From Aromatoleum toluclasticum ATCC 700605 (GTDB lineage Bacteria; Pseudomonadota; Gammaproteobacteria; Burkholderiales; Rhodocyclaceae), in the NCBI RefSeq assembly GCF_000378245.1, contig NZ_KB899505.1:62001-126000 (forward strand): 64,000 nt of DNA, given 5' to 3'. The translations under genes were made by a program, and so were the position numbers. Below, in pieces: positions 18,239-59,485 of this stretch; the first letter of the stretch is position 1, and each line of letters starts with the position of its first letter. The notes beneath the pieces were generated by a model. It was not told the DNA's origin, searched no databases, and worked only from the letters and a program-made list of their open reading frames with translations.

Positions 18239-19126
18239 CTATTTCACGGCGCCGAAATCGAACACCAGCGGCTCGGACACGCTCTTGTGTTCGGCATTGG
18301 CCTTGTTGAACACGGCGACCTGCCCGGTGAGCCGGGATCCCGGCTTGAACACGACATCGTCGGCGTTGCCGGTATCGAGGGCGCGGGCGAATTCCAGATT
18401 CCAGTACCCGGCCTTCCACACGCCCTTGGCTGCGACGTCCGCGGCACTGCCCGAGGCGTTCGCTGCCGCGAACGAAGGCAGGCGCTCGCCCTTGTTTTCC
18501 TTCGGGCGCGGCAGCATCTCGTAGGGTGCGGTGCCCTCGTCGCGCCGCTTCGAGATGTAGATCACCGGACCGTCCTTCACCTGATACTCGGCGGCCGATT
18601 CCTGCATCTTCGTCGTCACGTGGTGCGTCATGTCCTCCGCGATGCCGCCGGGGTTGGTGCGCGCGGCCGACCACAGCCACACGTCGACCGTGTAGTCCCG
18701 GGTCGACAGCATCGTGCGGTCGAAATCACCGGCAAGGTGGAAGCGCACCGCGAACATGTCCTCGAGCTGGTTCTCGCGCTGGTACTTGTCGCCGCGCCAG
18801 CTCCATTCCTTGTGCACGGTGTCCGCGGCATCGTCGGGATAACGCACGGCGAGATAGAGGCGCCCCGCCGCGACGCCTGCCTTCAGTTCCACCGCAAGGC
18901 TGCCGGCTTTGTTGCGCTCGCCGGCCGGATCGAGACCGTACTTCGCGCGGTCCTCGCGCTCCAGCGCGGGCTTCACGGGGACCTTGACCCAGCCGCTGCT
19001 GCCCCACTCGCCCAGTTCGCCGTCGACCTTCGGAGCGGCGGCGAGGTTCGCCACCGGAATCACCTGCGGGGCCTGGGCCTGCGCGGCCAACGGCAGCAGC
19101 AACAGGAGCGTGGCAAGTAGTTTCAT
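18239..19126 (-). CDS. Exported ethylbenzene-dehydrogenase-type haem-domain protein
   Basis: 295 residues with a signal peptide (residues 1-18, ending AQA). The mature part resembles the haem-binding domain of ethylbenzene dehydrogenase gamma subunit and related c-552/DMSO-reductase-type cytochromes (EB_dh family, which binds b haem). Visible features are VDGELGEWGSSGWVKVP, LYLAVRYPDDAADT and WSAARTNPGGIAEDM. No CxxCH is present, so any haem would be non-covalent. It lies 30 bases after the cupredoxin gene on the same strand. No catalytic molybdenum or iron-sulfur subunits are nearby, so a stand-alone electron carrier or haem sensor is more likely than a dehydrogenase subunit. Confidence 0.75.
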   Translation of the reverse strand: MKLLATLLLLLPLAAQAQAPQVIPVANLAAAPKVDGELGEWGSSGWVKVPVKPALEREDRAKYGLDPAGERNKAGSLAVELKAGVAAGRLYLAVRYPDDAADTVHKEWSWRGDKYQRENQLEDMFAVRFHLAGDFDRTMLSTRDYTVDVWLWSAARTNPGGIAEDMTHHVTTKMQESAAEYQVKDGPVIYISKRRDEGTAPYEMLPRPKENKGERLPSFAAANASGSAADVAAKGVWKAGYWNLEFARALDTGNADDVVFKPGSRLTGQVAVFNKANAEHKSVSEPLVFDFGAVK

Positions 19127-49857: not shown

Positions 49858-51870
49858 TCAGTGCGAGCCGAAGAAGCCGATCGCGACCAGCGCCAGCAGC
49901 GTCAGGCCCGCGGCAATCAGCGTGAAGCCGAGGATCTTCGAGCCCAGCGCCATCGGCCGCGAGGGCGCATCCACGATGAACTTCTCCAGCTCCCCGCTCT
50001 TCTGCAGGCGCTCGTATTCCAGCGCATGTTCGCGGCGGTACTCCTCGACCGGCATCGAGCCCGTGAACATCACGACCTCCAGCGGGAATTTGTCCGGGCG
50101 GAAGTGGTTGTTGAAGAAATGCACGGTGAACAGGAAGACCACCGCCAGGAAGGCTTCCTCGCTGTGGAAGATCGCCGCGACGTTGAACACCCAGCCGGGC
50201 AGGAAGGTCGCCGTGATCGTCGAGGCCCACATCATCAGCCCGCTCACGCCGATGATGGTCACCCCCCAGAACGGCGCCCAGTAGTCGAACTTCTCCCAGT
50301 AGGTCCAGCGGTCGAACACGGGGCGCTCGCCCTTGCCGAAGAACCACTTCAGCATCGCGAGGAAATCCTTGCCGTCCTGCAAGCCTGGCACGAGCGAGGT
50401 CGGGCCGAAGATGCGGAACTCCTTCCAGTCGCGCGCGAGCCGCACGGCGACGTAGGCGAGGTGCCAGAGGAACACGCCGGCGAAGATCACCGCATTGACG
50501 CGGTGGATGGTTCCCGCGACCTGCGGGCCACCCAGCGCCTTCATCAGCGGCACGGCCCAGGGCGCGTCCGGATAGAAGAGCGGGATGCCCGTGAGCGTCA
50601 GGATCATCAGGCTGAGCGCGAAGACGAGATGCGCAGCGCGCCAGGTCGTCGTGAAGCGGCGGAAGTGCTTGCCCGCGTGCCCGCCGCCGGCCAGGCCCGG
50701 CGCGTCGGCGCGCACGTGCGGCCGCGTCCTGCCCTGCTGGCGGTCGCGCAGTTCGCGCCAGAACCACAGCAGCGTGTGCAGCCAGAAGAAGCCGAAGGTG
50801 CCGACCAGCAGCTGGATCATCAGCTGGTTCGCGAGCCACATCTGCGGATAGCGCTCGAAATCGCCGGTGTGGCCGTGGGGCTGGAAGCTGGAGAATCCCG
50901 CAGGCGCCTCGGGCAGATCCTTCTTGCCGTTGTGGCACTCCTTGCAGGTCTTCATCCGGTTATCCGGATGCACCCTGGAGTCCGGATTCTTCACCGCCAG
51001 CACGTCATGGCTGCCGTGGCAGTCGAAACACTTGGCGGTGTAAGCGTAGCCCAGGGTATTGATCTGGCCGTGGTAGGTGGCCTTGTAGGACTTGAAGTTT
51101 TCCTCGTGGCAGCTGCCGCACTCGGCCGTCACGGCGAGCTTGAACGGCGCGAGCGAGGTATTGCCGACGGCGTGGGCGCTGTGGCAGTCGCTGCACACGG
51201 CGGCCTTGGCGTCCTTCTTCCGGAAGATCGCCTCGCCGTGAATCGATTCCGTGAAGGTTTCGAGCGATTCCTCGTGACAGCTCTTGCCGCAGGTCTCGGG
51301 CACCCTCAGGCGCCACTCGGCATACTGCGGCGAGTCCTTGGGCGGGACATTGAAACTATGACTGCTGTGACATTCGTCACAGCTCGCGTTCGGCCGATTC
51401 GGGTCGTCGGCGTTCTTGCGCGCGTGGAAGGACTCCTTGTACGCGGCGATGTTGTCGGCGACCACGCCGAGGCGCGGTTTGTCCCTGGCGCTGCCTTGCT
51501 GCTTCGCGCGCTCCCACAACGCTTCGTGACAGGACGCACAGTCCCTGGCCTTCAGCGCCGGATCCTTCTTGTGCGCGTTTCCCGATTCGGCGTTATCGGT
51601 GATTTCCGTATGGCACTCGACGCAGTCCATCTTTGCATGGACACCCTTCGCGAACGCATCGGGCGGCACGGCATGCAGCGCGCGCGATTCACCGTCGGCC
51701 CCCGGCACCGCGATCGCATTCTTGCTGCCGTCATGGCAACTCAGGCACTTCGCGTTCTCCAGTCCGGGAGGGGCTGCCGCGGCCGGCACGGCGGCGGCGA
51801 CACACAGGGATGCCAAGAGGGCGGCGGCGGCCGTGCGCAAGTCTACGCTCTTCAGGCTCATGCTCTTCAT
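49858..51870 (-). CDS. Nonahaem cytochrome c fused to a cytochrome b membrane domain (CbcL-like)
   Basis: 670 residues from ATG 51870; an in-frame ATG at 51921 would add 17 residues. Signal peptide about residues 1-33. The periplasmic part carries eight CxxCH motifs (42-46, 83-87, 111-115, 164-168, 226-230, 251-255, 281-285, 309-313) and one CxxxCH (194-199). From about residue 345 a hydrophobic di-haem cytochrome b domain of the HydC/FdnI type follows, with His-bearing helices (FFWLHTLLWF, AAHLVFALSL, VFLWHLAYVA, LFTVHFFNNHFRPD). The same order, with nine c haems then a b domain, is known for Geobacter CbcL, a low-potential quinol oxidase. Role here: passing electrons from the quinol pool to periplasmic carriers (inference). 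Confidence 0.88.
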   Translation of the reverse strand: MKSMSLKSVDLRTAAAALLASLCVAAAVPAAAAPPGLENAKCLSCHDGSKNAIAVPGADGESRALHAVPPDAFAKGVHAKMDCVECHTEITDNAESGNAHKKDPALKARDCASCHEALWERAKQQGSARDKPRLGVVADNIAAYKESFHARKNADDPNRPNASCDECHSSHSFNVPPKDSPQYAEWRLRVPETCGKSCHEESLETFTESIHGEAIFRKKDAKAAVCSDCHSAHAVGNTSLAPFKLAVTAECGSCHEENFKSYKATYHGQINTLGYAYTAKCFDCHGSHDVLAVKNPDSRVHPDNRMKTCKECHNGKKDLPEAPAGFSSFQPHGHTGDFERYPQMWLANQLMIQLLVGTFGFFWLHTLLWFWRELRDRQQGRTRPHVRADAPGLAGGGHAGKHFRRFTTTWRAAHLVFALSLMILTLTGIPLFYPDAPWAVPLMKALGGPQVAGTIHRVNAVIFAGVFLWHLAYVAVRLARDWKEFRIFGPTSLVPGLQDGKDFLAMLKWFFGKGERPVFDRWTYWEKFDYWAPFWGVTIIGVSGLMMWASTITATFLPGWVFNVAAIFHSEEAFLAVVFLFTVHFFNNHFRPDKFPLEVVMFTGSMPVEEYRREHALEYERLQKSGELEKFIVDAPSRPMALGSKILGFTLIAAGLTLLALVAIGFFGSH

Positions 51871-51967
51871 CGGCAGGTGTCCATGAAAACGCCGCGGCGA
51901 GCGCGGCGCGATCCATTGCAATCGGCCGACGCGCCTGTACGACGGAGCATCGGCCCTCGGTGCCGCA

Positions 51968-53269
51968 TTACGGCAACTTCACCGCCTTGATGTCGGCCTT
52001 GGCCCCGAATCCGATCGTCCTCACGAACGAGACCTGGTGGCCGCGCGTGGTGATGTTGTCATCATGCACAGCGAAACCGACATTGTATACGCCTCCGGCT
52101 TTCAGGCTCTTGTCGTCGTCGTTCGCAAGTCCGAGCGGACGGATCATGACCACCGTCCACACCCCGTCCTTCCAGCTCGCAATCGCCTTGTTGTCGGCGG
52201 CCGACCCCTTGGCGTCCTCGCGGCTGACGACGTAGTCGGGAATCATGTCGCCTTCCTTCCAGCCGGCGGCGGGATCGAAGGGCACCGCGTTCTTCTCGCG
52301 GATCAGGTAGTGCTCGCCTTGGCGCAACTGATCCACGGTGATCGACTTGTAGCCGACCTTGCTCGCGTCCCACATGAACTTGGGCTGGTGCGTCTTGGCG
52401 TCGGCGTTGCCGCTGAACATATCCTTGCCGGCATCGCCGTTGCGGAATTCGAGCACGTAGCCGTCGTCGGTCATCCCTACCGCATTGCTGCGATGTGCGC
52501 GCCACTGGATCAGGTCGACGAAACCGCCTGCCGCCTTGATCTTGGCGATGTCCTCGACGCTCTTGCCGGTTTTCCAATCGGACGGATCGGTCCGCGTGTC
52601 GGGCAGGTATTTGCGCACGTCGCTCTTCTTGAGCGCCTTCAGTAGTGCGTTGTTGGCAACCTCATCCTTGGTGAATTGTTTGGGCATGTCGCGCTCACCG
52701 TCGTGGCAGGTGAGCCAACAGCCCTGGTTCACGAAGCCCGGCACCTTGCCATCGTCGATCATGACCGACATGCGGTCCTCATAGATGCCCATCTCGGTGC
52801 CATCCTGAACGGGCTTGTCGAGTTTGGGATAGCCGAAGACCTTCCATTCCTTGCCGTCGAAGCGCAGGTACTGGTGCTCGCTGCCCGGATATGCGTTGTC
52901 GGTCTGCCACTGGAAGCGCAGGTAGGCGTTCTTGCTGTCATAGGCCGCCTGCACCTTGAGCGCCTTGAAGCCGGACTTGCCTTTGACCGGGCGCGGTTCG
53001 AGCCTGCCGCCCTTGACCAGCTTCTCGCCGATGTCCTTCTCGGCGTCCTCCTCGTCGTGACAGGAGGTGCAGGAGTCGCCGCGCTTGACCTCCTTCGCTG
53101 CCCCCTTGTGCTCGTTGCTGCGCAACCATTCGTAGGACGACTGCCCCGGGAAGAACAGCGGTACCGTCACCGCAGGGACCTTGCCCCAGTTGATCTTTGC
53201 CGGATCCGCGGCCTGCGCCGCACCGATGCCGAGAGCCGCCAGGCTGACAAGCAATGCCGTTTTTTTCAT
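51968..53269 (-). CDS. Dihaem cytochrome with ethylbenzene-dehydrogenase-type haem domain
   Basis: 433 residues, signal peptide 1-21. The covalent haem sites are C67-TS-C70-H71 and C184-WLT-C188-H189, the latter a CxxxCH. The rest fits the EB_dh/c-552-type haem-binding domain (AYLRFQWQTDNAYPGSEHQY, AGGFVDLIQWRAHRSNAVGMT), which normally holds a further b haem with Met/Lys ligands. It sits immediately upstream of the CbcL-like gene on the same strand (97-base gap) and downstream of frdD. It is a candidate electron acceptor for the CbcL-like protein or a carrier to an unknown terminal reductase. Confidence 0.82.
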   Translation of the reverse strand: MKKTALLVSLAALGIGAAQAADPAKINWGKVPAVTVPLFFPGQSSYEWLRSNEHKGAAKEVKRGDSCTSCHDEEDAEKDIGEKLVKGGRLEPRPVKGKSGFKALKVQAAYDSKNAYLRFQWQTDNAYPGSEHQYLRFDGKEWKVFGYPKLDKPVQDGTEMGIYEDRMSVMIDDGKVPGFVNQGCWLTCHDGERDMPKQFTKDEVANNALLKALKKSDVRKYLPDTRTDPSDWKTGKSVEDIAKIKAAGGFVDLIQWRAHRSNAVGMTDDGYVLEFRNGDAGKDMFSGNADAKTHQPKFMWDASKVGYKSITVDQLRQGEHYLIREKNAVPFDPAAGWKEGDMIPDYVVSREDAKGSAADNKAIASWKDGVWTVVMIRPLGLANDDDKSLKAGGVYNVGFAVHDDNITTRGHQVSFVRTIGFGAKADIKAVKLP

Positions 53270-53383: not shown

Positions 53384-53752
53384 TCAGAATCCGACCGCCC
53401 ACAGCGCCCCGGCGGCGAGCAGGGTGCCCAGCGCCGCCGATCCGTAGCACGCCAGACGCGTCGCGGCTCCGGCATGCACGCCGAGGTCGTGCAGGCTGTG
53501 GCAGATGCGGTGCGCGGCATGCCAGAGAAACAGGGCGATGATGGCGAAGAGGAAGCCCTTGCCCGCCCAGTGCTGCGCGAAGGCCTGCATGCGCGGCCAA
53601 CTCATCGCATCCGCGGGAAGGATCAGCCCCAGCGGCACGGCGATGCCGGTAATGAACACGAGCACCGGACCGAAGAGTGCCGCGAGCATGCCGCCCGCGC
53701 CGAAAAGTCCCCAGAAGATGGGGGCATTGGAACGTTTCATCGCCGCTTTCAT
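53384..53752 (-). CDS. frdD: Fumarate reductase membrane anchor subunit D
   Basis: 122 residues from ATG 53752, whose bases overlap the frdC stop (ATGA). Three membrane helices. The FrdD pattern is visible: RSNAPIFWGLFGAGGMLAAL, ALFGPVLVFITGIAVPLGL and WHAAHRICHSLHDLGVH, the last containing histidines near the quinone site. With FrdC it anchors FrdAB and provides the menaquinol-oxidising site. No haem b is expected in this four-subunit type. Confidence 0.93.
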   Translation of the reverse strand: MKAAMKRSNAPIFWGLFGAGGMLAALFGPVLVFITGIAVPLGLILPADAMSWPRMQAFAQHWAGKGFLFAIIALFLWHAAHRICHSLHDLGVHAGAATRLACYGSAALGTLLAAGALWAVGF

Positions 53753-54162
53753 CGCGTCAGCCCCCCTGCCAGCACCAGGACCAGCGCCAGCACGGCCAGG
53801 CTGCACACGCCCGCCGCCGCCAGCCCGCAAGCGGTGATCGTCGCCGGCGCCACGCGCTTTCCTCCGACCACAAGCGGCGGCATGGTCTTGGGCATGATGC
53901 GGAACCAGGTCCAGGCGTGGTAGGCGATCGCCGTCAGCAGCACGACGTGGAAGACAACCGACAAGGGGCTGCGCAGCGCCTCCAGCCATCCGCTCCATGC
54001 CGCTTCGCCCTGCGCCAGCCGCAGCAGGCCGACCAACAGCACCAGCGCATAGGCGGCGACGAACAGCGCGGTCGCCTCATGCACCATGTATTCGACGAAG
54101 AAGGGATTGCGGCGCCACCAGCCCGCCATCGGACGCACGTAGGGGCGGCGCGGATCGGACAT
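53749..54162 (-). CDS. frdC: Fumarate reductase membrane anchor subunit C
   Basis: 137 residues from ATG 54162. Three membrane helices after a short cytoplasmic lead (RRPYVRPMAGWWRRNPFFVEYMVHE), a hallmark of FrdC with the conserved Glu. It lies two bases after frdB and overlaps frdD by four, so all four subunits are made from one transcript. Confidence 0.93.
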   Translation of the reverse strand: MSDPRRPYVRPMAGWWRRNPFFVEYMVHEATALFVAAYALVLLVGLLRLAQGEAAWSGWLEALRSPLSVVFHVVLLTAIAYHAWTWFRIMPKTMPPLVVGGKRVAPATITACGLAAAGVCSLAVLALVLVLAGGLTR

Positions 54163-54164
54163 AT

Positions 54165-54929
54165 TCACTTGGCACCTCCCTTCGGGCGGACGAGCCGCAG
54201 GAAGTAGTCGCCCGCCGCGCGCGTCTTGTTCTGGTTGACCGCGTTGGCTGGATCGACGTGCTTCGGGCACACCTCGGAGCAGTAGCCGACCGCGGTGCAG
54301 TTGAAGGCGCCCGCTTCCGATCCGGCGACCTCCATACGTTCCGCGGCGGCGCCGTCGCGCGAATCAGCGTTGTAACGGTGCAGCAGGGCCATGATGCCCG
54401 GCCCGACGAAGTCGGGATTGAGCCCGTACTGCGGGCACGCGGCGTAGCACAGCAGGCAGTTGATGCAGGAGCTGAACTGCTCATACACGTCAAGTTGTGC
54501 GGGCGTCTGCAGGTACTCACCCTGCGCGAGGGTCCGTTCTTCCTTCGGGACGATCCAGGGCTTGATGCTTTCGAGCTTGGCGAGAAAGTCGTCCATGCGG
54601 ATCACGAGGTCGCGCTCGATCGGGAAATGCGCCAATGCTTCGACGCGCACGGCTCCGGCAGGGAAGTCGCGCAGGAAGGTCTTGCACGCGAGGCACGGCT
54701 CGCCGTCTATCATCATCCCGCAGCTGCCGCAGATCGCCATGCGGCACGACCAGCGGAAGCTCAGCGTGCCGTCGAGCCGGTCCTTGATGTACTGCAGGCC
54801 CTGCAGCACCGACATGTCGTCGGTGAAGGGGACGTCGTAGCTCTGCAGGAAAGGCTCCCGGTCCTGCTCGGGACGGTAGCGCAGGACCTCGATGCGGATC
54901 ACCTTGCCGTTCTTGCCCGTTTCAGACAC
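54165..54929 (-). CDS. frdB: Fumarate reductase iron-sulfur subunit
   Basis: 254 residues. The [2Fe-2S] site uses C62, C67, C70 and C82 (CRMAICGSCG...CLAC). The C-terminal half has CINCLLCYAACP and CTAVGYCSEVCPKHVDP for the [4Fe-4S] and [3Fe-4S] clusters. It carries electrons from menaquinol to FrdA. The 5' end overlaps frdA by eight bases. Confidence 0.96.
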   Translation of the reverse strand: MSETGKNGKVIRIEVLRYRPEQDREPFLQSYDVPFTDDMSVLQGLQYIKDRLDGTLSFRWSCRMAICGSCGMMIDGEPCLACKTFLRDFPAGAVRVEALAHFPIERDLVIRMDDFLAKLESIKPWIVPKEERTLAQGEYLQTPAQLDVYEQFSSCINCLLCYAACPQYGLNPDFVGPGIMALLHRYNADSRDGAAAERMEVAGSEAGAFNCTAVGYCSEVCPKHVDPANAVNQNKTRAAGDYFLRLVRPKGGAK

Positions 54930-56724
54930 GGTTCGGCCCTCCCTGCTGTACGGCCCGCTCCTGTTCGGCTTTCTCGCCAGCGGCGCCGTAGGCGCGGGTA
55001 CCCGGCTGCGAGCGGGTGATCTTCACGTCGCCGTAGTCGATGCGCGGCGCGTCGGCGCCCGCGTAATGCGCGAGCGAGTGCCTGAGGAAGTTCGCGTCGT
55101 CGCGCTCGCCGAAGCCGTCGAGACGCTGGTGCGCACCGCGCGATTCGCGCCGCTCGAGGGCCGACCACGCCATCGCCTGCGCAACCTCGAGCTGGTAGCC
55201 GAGCTCGATCGCGAGCAGCCAGTCGGTATTCCACACGCAGGAGCTGTCCTCGACCTTCACCCTGCGATAGCGCTCGCGCAGTTCGGCGAGCTTGTCGCAG
55301 GTCGCCTGCATGCTGTCGGCCTGACGGTAGATGCCGCAGCCGTCTTCCATGCTCTGCGCCATGTCCTTGCGCAGCGTGGCGATGCGCTCGGTGCCGGCGG
55401 CGTTCGTCACGAGCCCGAGCGCGCGCTGCTGCGACGCCTCCGCCTGCTTCAGCAACACCTCCGTCGATCCGGGCGCGACCGATTTCGCGAAGGCTGCGGC
55501 CTCGACGCCGGCGGTCTTGCCGAACACGCACAGCTCCGCGAGCGAATTCGAGCCGAGGCGGTTGGCGCCGTGGATGCCGACGCTGGAGCATTCGCCCGCC
55601 GCATACAGGCCCGGCAGCGGCGCGGCGCAGCGCCCATCGACGAGGATGCCGCCCATCGTGTAATGCACCGCCGGGCGCACGGGGATCGGGGTCTTGGCCG
55701 GATCGACGCCGAGGAATTCCTCGGCCAGCTCGTAGATCTGCGGCAGGCGCTCGCGCAGCCTGGCTTCGCCGAGATGGCGCAGGTCAAGGTGCACGACCGG
55801 GCCGTGCGGGCCGTCGATGGTGCGCCCCTTCTGCTGCTCGTACCAGAAGGCCTGGCTCAGGCGGTCGCGCGGGCCGAGCTCCATCGCCTTGTTGCGCGGC
55901 GTCGGCTCGGCGGGCCCGAGGCCGTAGTCCTGCAGGTAACGGTAGCCGTCCCGGTTCAGCAGGAAGCCCCCTTCGCCACGGCAGGCCTCGGTGAACAGCA
56001 GGCCGGTGCCGGGCATGCAGGTCGGGTGGTACTGGACGAATTCCATGTCGCGCAGCGGCACGCCGTGGCGGTAGGCGAGCGCCATGCCGTCGCCGGTGAC
56101 GATGCCGCCGTTGGTGTTCTCGCGGAAGACGCGCCCGGCGCCGCCAGTGGCGATGATCACGGCGTTGGCCTGGATCAGCGTGAAGCGGCGCGACGCGATG
56201 TCGACGACGACCACGCCCTGCACGCGCCCGTCCTCGACGACCAGGTCGAGGCAGAAGTTCTCGTCGAAGCGCCGGATGGACGGGTACTTGAGCGAGGTCT
56301 GGAACAGCGTGTGCAGCATGTGGAAGCCGGTTTTGTCGGCAGCGAACCACGTGCGCTCGATCTTCATGCCGCCGAAGGCACGCACGTTGATGTGGCCGTC
56401 CGTCTTGCGGCTCCAGGGACAGCCCCAGTGCTCGAGCTGGACCATTTCCTCCGTGCAGCGCGCGACGAAGTCCTCGACCACATCCTGCTCGCACAGCCAG
56501 TCGCCGCCGGCGACGGTGTCGTGAAAGTGGTGTTCGAGGCTGTCGTGGGCCTGCACGACGCCGGCGGCCCCGCCCTCGGCCGCCACGGTGTGGCTGCGCA
56601 TCGGGTAGACCTTGGAAACCAGCGCGATCCTCAGCGAGGGGTCGGACTCGGCGGCCGCGATCGCGGCACGCAGGCCCGCTCCGCCCGCACCGACTATTGC
56701 GACGTCTGCCTTCCAGGCATCCAT
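54922..56724 (-). CDS. frdA: Fumarate reductase flavoprotein subunit
   Basis: 600 residues (E. coli FrdA 602). The FAD-binding GAGGAG (residues 12-17) is followed by RSHTVAAEGG, where the His carries covalent 8-alpha-histidyl FAD. Active-site segments HPTCMPGTGLLFTEACRGEGG and HYTMGGILVDGRCA are intact. First gene of frdABCD; the presence of E. coli-type FrdC and FrdD separates it from succinate dehydrogenase. It reduces fumarate to succinate under anoxia. Confidence 0.96.
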   Translation of the reverse strand: MDAWKADVAIVGAGGAGLRAAIAAAESDPSLRIALVSKVYPMRSHTVAAEGGAAGVVQAHDSLEHHFHDTVAGGDWLCEQDVVEDFVARCTEEMVQLEHWGCPWSRKTDGHINVRAFGGMKIERTWFAADKTGFHMLHTLFQTSLKYPSIRRFDENFCLDLVVEDGRVQGVVVVDIASRRFTLIQANAVIIATGGAGRVFRENTNGGIVTGDGMALAYRHGVPLRDMEFVQYHPTCMPGTGLLFTEACRGEGGFLLNRDGYRYLQDYGLGPAEPTPRNKAMELGPRDRLSQAFWYEQQKGRTIDGPHGPVVHLDLRHLGEARLRERLPQIYELAEEFLGVDPAKTPIPVRPAVHYTMGGILVDGRCAAPLPGLYAAGECSSVGIHGANRLGSNSLAELCVFGKTAGVEAAAFAKSVAPGSTEVLLKQAEASQQRALGLVTNAAGTERIATLRKDMAQSMEDGCGIYRQADSMQATCDKLAELRERYRRVKVEDSSCVWNTDWLLAIELGYQLEVAQAMAWSALERRESRGAHQRLDGFGERDDANFLRHSLAHYAGADAPRIDYGDVKITRSQPGTRAYGAAGEKAEQERAVQQGGPNRV

Positions 56725-58093: not shown

Positions 58094-59485
58094 ATGGATT
58101 TGGTAAAGAAACCGTTTTACACGTCGCTGTATTTCCAGGTCATCGTCGCGATCGTGATTGGCGTGCTGCTGGGGCATTTCTACCCGCAGACCGGCGCTGC
58201 GATGAAACCGCTGGGTGACGGCTTCATCAAGCTGATCAAGATGATCATCGCCCCGATCATCTTCTGTACCGTCGTCGTCGGCATCGCCGGCATGGAGGAC
58301 ATGAAGAAGGTCGGCAAGACGGGTGGCCTGGCGCTGCTGTATTTCGAGGTCGTCAGCACGATCGCGCTGATGGTGGGACTGGTCATCGTCAATACCGTCA
58401 AGCCGGGCGCCGGCATGAACATCGACGTGACGACGCTGGATACGAAAGCGATCGCCGCCTATACCGACCCGTCGAAGATGCAGAGCACGACGGAGTTCCT
58501 GCTGCACGTGATCCCGACAACCGTCGTCGACGCCTTCGCGAAGGGCGAGATCCTGCAGGTGCTGCTGTTCTCGGTGCTGTTCGGCTTCGCGCTGCACAAG
58601 TTCGGCGGCCGTGGCACGCCGGTGTTCGACTTCATCGAGAAGTTCTCGCACGTGCTGTTCGGCATCGTCGGCTACATCATGAAGGTCGCGCCGATCGGCG
58701 CGTTCGGCGCGATGGCCTTCACGATCGGCAAGCACGGCGTCGGCGCCCTCGCCCAGCTCGGCATGCTGATGGGCACCTTCTACGCGACCTGCCTCGTGTT
58801 CATCTTCGGCGTGCTGGGCCTGATCGCACGCATCCACGGCTTCTCGGTCGTGAAGCTGATCGCCTACATCAAGGAAGAGCTGCTGATCGTGCTGGGCACC
58901 TCGTCGTCCGAGTCGGCGCTACCGCGCATCATGGCCAAGATGGAGAACCTGGGCTGCAAGAAGTCGACCGTCGGCCTCGTGATCCCGACCGGCTACTCGT
59001 TCAACCTCGACGGCACCTCGATCTACCTGACGATGGCGGCCGTGTTCATCGCGCAGGCGACCAACACCCCGCTGGACCTGACGCAACAGCTGACCCTGCT
59101 TGCGGTGTTGCTCCTGACCTCGAAGGGCGCGGCGGGCGTCACCGGCAGCGGCTTCATCGTACTCGCCGCGACGCTGTCGGCCGTCGGCGGCGTGCCGGTG
59201 GCGGGCCTTGCGCTGATCCTTGGCATCGACCGCTTCATGTCGGAAGCTCGTGCGCTGACCAACCTGATCGGCAACAGCGTCGCGACCGTGGTCGTCGCGA
59301 AATGGTGCAAGGACGTCGACATGAAGGTGCTCAACAGCCACCTCAACAACGAGACGATCGAGGAAGCCAACGATCCCGAGGCCGTGCTCGACCAGCAGGA
59401 CGCGCACATGGACGTGCGCCAGGCCGTGGCGAAGGTGACAGAAGCGGCCGAAATGCCGCAGCTCGCAGTGCCTGCCCGCGCGTAA
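58094..59485 (+). CDS. dctA: C4-dicarboxylate transporter DctA
   Basis: 463 residues (family about 430-460). It takes up succinate, fumarate and malate with protons or sodium. SDF-family features: [14 protein letters not shown] (the serine-rich re-entrant loop), [15 protein letters not shown] and [21 protein letters not shown] touches the ATG at 58094 directly; a TTG at 58100, in the same frame, has better spacing (six bases) and may be the true start. Its position near frdABCD suggests fumarate import for respiration. Confidence 0.95.

Follow-up and report, generated by a model that had tools for sequence, protein, structure and literature searches.

The cytochromes reported here have their closest described counterparts in the CbcL/MtrH/MtoC family and in the pairs of a NapC/NirT-type quinol dehydrogenase with a dihaem cytochrome. 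The first family, with an N-terminal c domain of 3-23 haem motifs in print, is known from 15 phyla and has members in Dechloromonas, Rhodoferax and Gallionella (PMC6295460). In Geobacter, CbcL is partnered in the periplasm by the triheme PpcA (PMC9129911), and for the betaproteobacterial members of the CbcL/MtoC group no established periplasmic partner was met in the parts of the literature searched. In nirS operons, NapC/NirT-type proteins occur with dihaem cytochromes carrying the EB_dh domain. NirB, the cytochrome c-552 of Pseudomonas stutzeri nirSTBM (with NirT), is such a protein. In a 64,000-nucleotide stretch of DNA from Aromatoleum toluclasticum ATCC 700605 (contig NZ_KB899505.1, positions 62,001 to 126,000; hereafter the window), we have identified a fusion of a nonahaem c domain with a cytochrome b domain, P1, encoded next to a dihaem EB_dh cytochrome, P2, directly after the fumarate reductase genes frdABCD.

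It is likely, in our judgement, that P1 and P2 work together as a single module for electron transfer between quinone pool and periplasm. P2 would most likely serve in it as the dihaem relay, on the periplasmic side, of a dehydrogenase linked to quinones, which in this case is of the CbcL/MtoC type in place of NapC. The parts of the locus are for the most part known, and it is their arrangement that is new. The original prediction, made from the letters of the window, had called the route undescribed; this could not be upheld for P1, given that CbcL/MtrH/MtoC homologues in betaproteobacteria are already published (PMC6295460), and the new part appears to be P2 and its recurring pairing with CbcL/MtoC-type proteins. 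No such pair with an EB_dh protein was named in the literature searched, which consisted mainly of titles and the beginnings of abstracts, and Figure 5 of PMC6295460 may show such neighbours unnamed.

The P1 cytochrome

The start of P1 was taken as the ATG at 51870, the mechanical open reading frame (ORF) beginning at a TTG and giving 687 residues. Behind a Sec-like leader, recognised by eye, the nine c-type haem motifs originally read in this protein were recovered as eight CXXCH (residues 42, 83, 111, 164, 226, 251, 281 and 309) and one CX3CH (residue 194), while 2000 shuffled versions of the protein held at most one CXXCH (mean 0.02). The b domain matched formate dehydrogenase gamma (TIGR01583, E 3.7e-8), under the curated cut-off, and the six helices of the structural model (342-378, 408-432, 449-480, 524-548, 559-589 and 638-668) resembled the FdnI fold (1kqf_C, E 2.6e-4, template modelling score by target 0.69), which was the sole PDB match at E <= 0.001. 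By sequence, no solved relatives of P1 were found; its profile gave six weak matches to solved structures, four of them cytochromes c. A PHROGs search gave no match, and a plasmid search found no P1.

Within the membrane region, H365, H414, H456, H569, H584 and H589 are invariant across 24 aligned sequences, and some of them are candidate haem b ligands. The proposal that P1 is CbcL-like, with a HydC/FdnI-like b domain, is thus supported by the multihaem N-terminal c domain, the six-helix FdnI-like fold and the conserved membrane histidines. Since this is the architecture of the CbcL/MtrH/MtoC proteins, P1 is assigned, by architecture alone, as a putative further member of that known family.

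The P2 cytochrome and its NapC-linked relatives

P2 also carries a Sec-like leader (by eye). Its description as a dihaem EB_dh cytochrome held in full for the EB_dh domain and conditionally for the haems, because P2 has a single CXXCH (residue 67) and becomes dihaem only if the CX3CH at residue 184 is counted; the two cysteines and the histidine of that CX3CH are invariant in a 53-sequence alignment. By sequence, neither P2 nor its profile had solved relatives. The P2 model (predicted local distance difference test, pLDDT, 83; predicted template modelling score 0.85) matched EbdC best (2ivf_C, E 1.6e-8) and NxrC next (7b04_C). Together with both haem motifs, H54, H402 and H411 are invariant in 27/27 long, short and NapC-fused forms of P2, which would allow transfer haems ligated by two histidines.

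A link to NapC/NirT came from gene fusions. In a plasmid tblastn search, P2-like regions lay within proteins named "NapC/NirT family cytochrome c" in all five matching records. Azospirillum brasilense Sp7 has a single NapC-EB_dh protein (N-terminal PF03264 6.6e-74, C-terminal PF09459 2.1e-35), as does Ruegeria sp. THAF33 (N-terminal NapC 4.2e-69, C-terminal EB_dh 6.7e-34), and each fusion gene is flanked by a cytochrome D1-domain gene on one side and by an azurin-type gene on the other. Sixteen EB_dh loci from the bacterial family of the window, hand-picked mostly by open-frame length and not at random, comprised six NapC-EB_dh fusions, nine short dihaem forms and L245, the second EB_dh gene of the window. 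Seven of the nine short forms are directly preceded by a NapC-type gene and eight have nirS/D1-type genes in the locus, with both in six. On account of the NapC fusions and neighbours, the invariant motifs and histidines and the EbdC/NxrC-like model, P2-type proteins appear to be c-type cytochromes with two haems, built on the EB_dh scaffold and acting as partners of quinol dehydrogenases. A dihaem partner that recurs in this way, and that gene fusions connect with the NirT-type design, offers something definite to test in aromatic degraders available in culture.

Some further EB_dh genes deserve mention. The six fusions of the bacterial family (L230-L235) have no nir genes as neighbours, but genes of flavocytochrome type and genes for dihaem cytochromes. 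L245 lies at 18239-19126 (-) of the window and encodes 295 residues with an EB_dh match (PF09459 1.1e-18) and no c-haem motif. Elsewhere in the window genome (G000), contig C27 holds an ethylbenzene-dehydrogenase-like cluster (L014, 6475-11841; 977, 356, 212 and 284 residues), in which a family match was obtained for the 212-residue EB_dh member only. The P2 copies L082 and L086 of two other Aromatoleum genomes (G001 and G003) are called without the N-terminal haem part and are perhaps degraded.

Recurrence of the P2-P1 pair

Named genomes were scanned with the P2 alignment, and the best 80 of 167 relatives were kept as loci, 57 of them with at least 3 kb on both sides; genes were called with our own GC-based ORF picker, and neighbours were labelled by their BLAST/tblastn matches to seed sequences and carry no curated names. 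P2 has a P1-type gene no more than 3 kb away in 29 of the 80 loci, a lower bound as the P1 of L212 was not over the 250-bit limit, in 25 of the 57 well-flanked loci and in 20 of 51 without Aromatoleum/Azoarcus; NapC-type genes are found as near in 5 of the 57. In 23 of the 29 cases the P1-type gene is downstream of P2 on the same strand at no more than 1.2 kb, often in the order P2-c1-P1 with a monohaem gene between. Thus the conserved co-occurrence of the two cytochrome genes for which the original prediction proposed a search recurs beyond Aromatoleum, and no single known reductase emerged as a constant partner, a pairing that would have undermined the CbcL-like reading.

Among 150 sampled genomes of the bacterial family, P1 matches were found in 44, of which 35 were counted as strong (E no higher than 4.7e-129; G092 is truncated by the end of its contig). 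Long P2 forms were counted in 21 of 78 matching genomes after short forms were dropped. Strong P1 occurred in 12/21 genomes with long P2 vs 23/129 without (Fisher p 3e-4, uncorrected for relatedness). A P1 tree made by a quick method from 66 of 71 sequences, five being dropped for an identical end of 500 residues, placed P2-paired P1s in several branches. The P2 label needs nine changes, at least seven of them forced by starred branches, and eight changes when rows with both P2 and Mtr are merged into P2; as 29 of the 71 sequences were drawn from the P2 scan, P2-linked rows are favoured. The P1 of the window belongs to an 11-row clade (97*) in which every row is P2-linked, beside MtrAB-linked rows. 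Moreover, MtrA and MtrB are both encoded at a distance of about 5 kb or less from P2 in Herbaspirillum (L167) and in metagenome-assembled genomes (MAGs) of Sulfuricaulis (L190), Burkholderiales (L199) and Acidobacteria (L206). A different neighbourhood was seen in L173, L175, L177 and L181, mostly Rhodoferax-type MAGs, where P2 is followed by an iron-sulphur protein and then by a gene that, from a look at its sequence, is aldehyde:ferredoxin oxidoreductase-like.

Proposed electron path and its direction

We infer how P2 may dock on P1 and how, in which direction and to which final partner electrons may flow. With P1 in the inner membrane, its b domain would exchange electrons with quinol/quinone and its nine c haems would carry them into the periplasm, where the soluble, two-haem P2 would dock on P1 and pass electrons to or from periplasmic partners, most plausibly MtrAB-type outer-membrane conduits of the same genome. 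The design would be that of NapC/NirT and the dihaem EB_dh proteins of nirS operons, with the NapC part swapped for a CbcL/MtoC-type protein.

The window genome encodes four MtrB_PioB barrels. On contig C1 MtrB belongs to locus L012 (c1-MtrA-MtrB-P1, its MtrA with 10 haem motifs), which includes a P1 paralogue 55% identical to the P1 of the window; on C31 it occurs with a NapC gene, C6 holds a distant MtrA-MtrB pair, and C7 has c1-MtrA-MtrB, where the 17 kb read showed neither a P1-type nor a NapC-type gene. The C7 conduit may be the best candidate partner for P1/P2, by inference only. As an observation in its own right, the four MtrA-MtrB-type conduits (L012, L225, L226 and L227) have differing inner-membrane companions, or none.

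The original prediction assumed outward flow from menaquinol. No MenD was found above the cut-off in 17/17 Aromatoleum genomes, while 7 of 14 control genomes pass; there was no MqnA/D match in the window genome either, which leaves the menaquinol reading without support. G002 and G003, two other species that lack the frd genes discussed here, exceed the MqnA/D cut-off (PF02621) by less than 1 bit. Accordingly, though no search was aimed at rhodoquinone, the genome seems to lack the low-potential quinol that one would expect if electrons flowed outward as with CbcL, and with ubiquinone alone inward flow would become easier, given the apparent midpoint of -194 mV of the CbcL c domain (PMC9129911). 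In such a variant, compatible with the P1/P2 module, electrons from outside or from the periplasm would reach ubiquinone by way of P2 and P1, in the direction proposed for MtoC in bacteria that oxidise iron; the paralogue locus L012, with its resemblance to the mto clusters of PMC6295460, speaks for it as well. On the other side, the same article states that oxidising and reducing members of the family cannot be told apart by any feature, and we regard inward flow as a real, though tentative, possibility. Separately, E. coli-type FrdABCD was found in 9 of the 17 Aromatoleum genomes, and no convincing menaquinone pathway gene was found in them. That the cytochromes are paired with frd, in a genus where menaquinone genes could not be recognised, prompts one to ask which quinone is used and in which direction.

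Several observations weigh against a P1/P2 module as described. Neither P1 nor NapC lies within 3 kb of P2 in 28 of the 57 well-flanked loci, and 9 of the 21 long-P2 genomes of the family sample have no strong P1 match. No MtrAB is found beside P1/P2 in the window, and the C7 conduit could have a partner of its own in a gene, b561-like by eye, that is located about 2 to 3 kb away. The confidence of the P1 model is moderate (pLDDT 70). Among the 53 long forms of P2 the haem motifs, H402 and H411 are invariant, while H54, conserved in at least 90%, is only nearly so. Finally, an NtrC-type regulator lies within 3 kb of P2 in 23 of the 57 loci and a sensor kinase in 20, and an exact sigma-54 -24/-12 site precedes P2 in 13 of 79 loci vs 0.1% of shuffles.

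Alternative roles

These regulators and sigma-54 sites support a substrate-specific role for P2. Perhaps P2 receives electrons from P1 or NapC and acts as a terminal reductase in its own right, reducing a soluble electron acceptor in the periplasm, with the cache-domain sensor kinase and NtrC-type regulator that adjoin many relatives sensing the substrate. Twelve of the 13 exact sites fall among the 29 loci with an adjacent NtrC-type regulator, the kinase of the pair at L081 has a dCache_3 domain, and a porin-like gene (by eye) stands between the regulator and P2 in L147, L152 and L153. However, both haems could have the spare invariant histidines as ligands, in which case neither would be open for catalysis, relatives of P2 adjoin or are fused to NapC beside a separate gene for a cd1-type terminal enzyme, and in Aromatoleum no regulator of this kind adjoins P2. 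We consider a reductase role unlikely and prefer the relay reading of P2.

Two further readings involve frdABCD. In one scheme, an extracellular donor would feed MtrAB, P2, P1 and the quinone pool, from which FrdABCD would reduce fumarate; it strikes us as quite improbable, yet if true, one frd-P2-P1 operon would connect a donor outside the cell with fumarate respiration, and this in an organism in which no menaquinone pathway was found. In another, P1 and P2 would be accessory subunits of the FrdABCD complex. The genes are on the same strand with short gaps, and the Aromatoleum genomes with frdC, 9 of 17, are precisely those that hold this P2 at >=86% identity; in all nine frdC adjoins P2 on the same contig and strand, with P1 next in eight. 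Genes of frdAB type are near P2 in L154 and L174 too. Against this, frdC is over the cut-off in 30 of the 150 family genomes and adjoins a long P2 in only three (G000, G009 and G030), the ninth Aromatoleum genome, G008, keeps frd-P2 with its P1-type genes elsewhere, and the four Frd subunits are all present without P1/P2. On this distribution, an accessory role is very unlikely.

FrdA neighbours occur in 8 of the 80 P2 loci, with one doubtful, L165 (other strand, 60% only). The distribution of frdC and P2 indicates parts inherited together in one lineage, with frd no general partner of P2, and the frd link is mainly an Aromatoleum trait. The suggested functional tie to fumarate reduction is not supported by these data, P2 being rarely beside frd outside Aromatoleum. 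Moreover, Frd faces the cytoplasm, while the haem domain of P1 and P2 carry leaders. FrdABCD and P1/P2 probably share an operon, not an electron path.

The weakest candidate, P2 as an EbdC/DdhC/SerC-type gamma subunit of a DMSO-reductase type II molybdoenzyme, as its EB_dh fold with EbdC and NxrC as best solved matches might suggest, is hardly credible and was rejected, because P2 scores far under the cut-offs (TIGR03477 45.3 vs 169.85 bits, NF042980 24 vs 400), has two c-haem motifs vs the single b haem of EbdC (PMC8387239), neighbours frd and P1 with no type II alpha/beta gene recognised by eye among the nearby ORFs, and has a molybdoenzyme near it in 3 of the 57 loci, the one representative scanned being closest to PhsA and under every listed cut-off.

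Organisation of the locus

The window genome, of 5.9 Mb, belongs to Aromatoleum, in agreement with the betaproteobacterial origin proposed from the sequence. Also as proposed, both cytochrome genes directly follow frdABCD in the same orientation: the minus-strand order is frdA-frdB-frdC-frdD-P2-P1 (56724 down to 49858), with gaps of 114 bp between frdD and P2 and 97 bp between P2 and P1, neither of which holds terminator-like sites, and yebC converges on P1 from the opposite side (Table 1). All four Frd subunits pass curated cut-offs (NCBIfam equivalogs, FrdA 1046.6 bits vs 854 and FrdB 401.4 vs 333), and by sequence frdABCD is a genuine quinol:fumarate reductase operon. A sodium:dicarboxylate symporter gene near frdA (58094-59485) fits the use of C4-dicarboxylates. 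No exact sigma-54 site was found at the window locus, the best sites having two mismatches upstream of P2 and three upstream of frdA, and a search for FNR boxes there gave no FNR-like match. P2 is 91-93% identical to its counterparts in A. tolulyticum, A. evansii and A. toluolicum and 86% to that of A. diolicum; A. tolulyticum and A. evansii show the gene order of the window.

Table 1. Genes and predicted domains of the frd-P2-P1 locus (window positions)
Feature	Position	Strand	Basis
frdA	54922..56724	-	NF006686 and TIGR01176 above cut-off
frdB	54165..54929	-	NF009051 above cut-off
frdC	53749..54165	-	PF02300 3e-47, 160 bits
frdD	53384..53746	-	PF02313 2.2e-43, 148 bits
P2, dihaem EB_dh cytochrome, 433 aa	51968..53269	-	PF09459 2e-63; model; EbdC and NxrC folds
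P2 haem motif 1, CTSCH, residues 67-71	53057..53071	-	Invariant in 27 long, short and NapC-fused relatives
P2 haem motif 2, CWLTCH (CX3CH), residues 184-189	52703..52720	-	Invariant in the same 27 relatives
P1, CbcL/MtrH/MtoC-type nonahaem c / cytochrome b fusion, 670 aa	49858..51870	-	Translation, haem motifs, Pfam/NCBIfam, alignment, model and fold, paralogue
P1 haem c domain, residues 42-313, nine motifs	50932..51747	-	Motifs kept in 24-sequence alignment
P1 membrane cytochrome b domain, residues 342-668, six long helices in model	49867..50847	-	Alignment, model, fold match

Comparison with known systems

P1 shares with CbcL of Geobacter, MtrH of Rhodoferax and MtoC of Dechloromonas and Gallionella a multihaem N-terminal c domain (nine haems in CbcL), six membrane helices of the HydC/FdnI type and conserved membrane histidines, and the family has betaproteobacterial members (PMC6295460, PMC9129911). 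It differs in having one CX3CH among its nine motifs and an EB_dh dihaem cytochrome as gene partner; moreover, some members of the family adjoin mtrAB/mtoAB, whereas P1 does not. The role proposed for P2, to connect a quinol dehydrogenase with MtrAB, is like that of PdsA, a dihaem periplasmic shuttle found beside cymA and mtrCAB (PMC8805035).

EbdC and NxrC, gamma subunits of type II molybdoenzymes, have the EB_dh fold in common with P2 and bind haem b through Met/Lys ligands (PMC8387239, PMC8840923), whereas P2 has two c-haem motifs. When P2 is aligned with the EbdC-like protein of the window genome (probability only 59), its invariant H411 falls two residues away from a lysine of that protein which may be the haem ligand.

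In design the pair resembles NapC/NirT and the dihaem EB_dh proteins of nirS operons; the latter share with P2 the haem motifs, the extra histidines and a quinol dehydrogenase gene that is adjacent or fused. P2, at 433 residues, is longer than the short forms of nir operons (286-379 residues in our own ORF picks), has neither NapC/NirT nor nirS beside it, and is encoded between frdD and P1, with a CbcL/MtoC-type protein, not NapC, as its partner.

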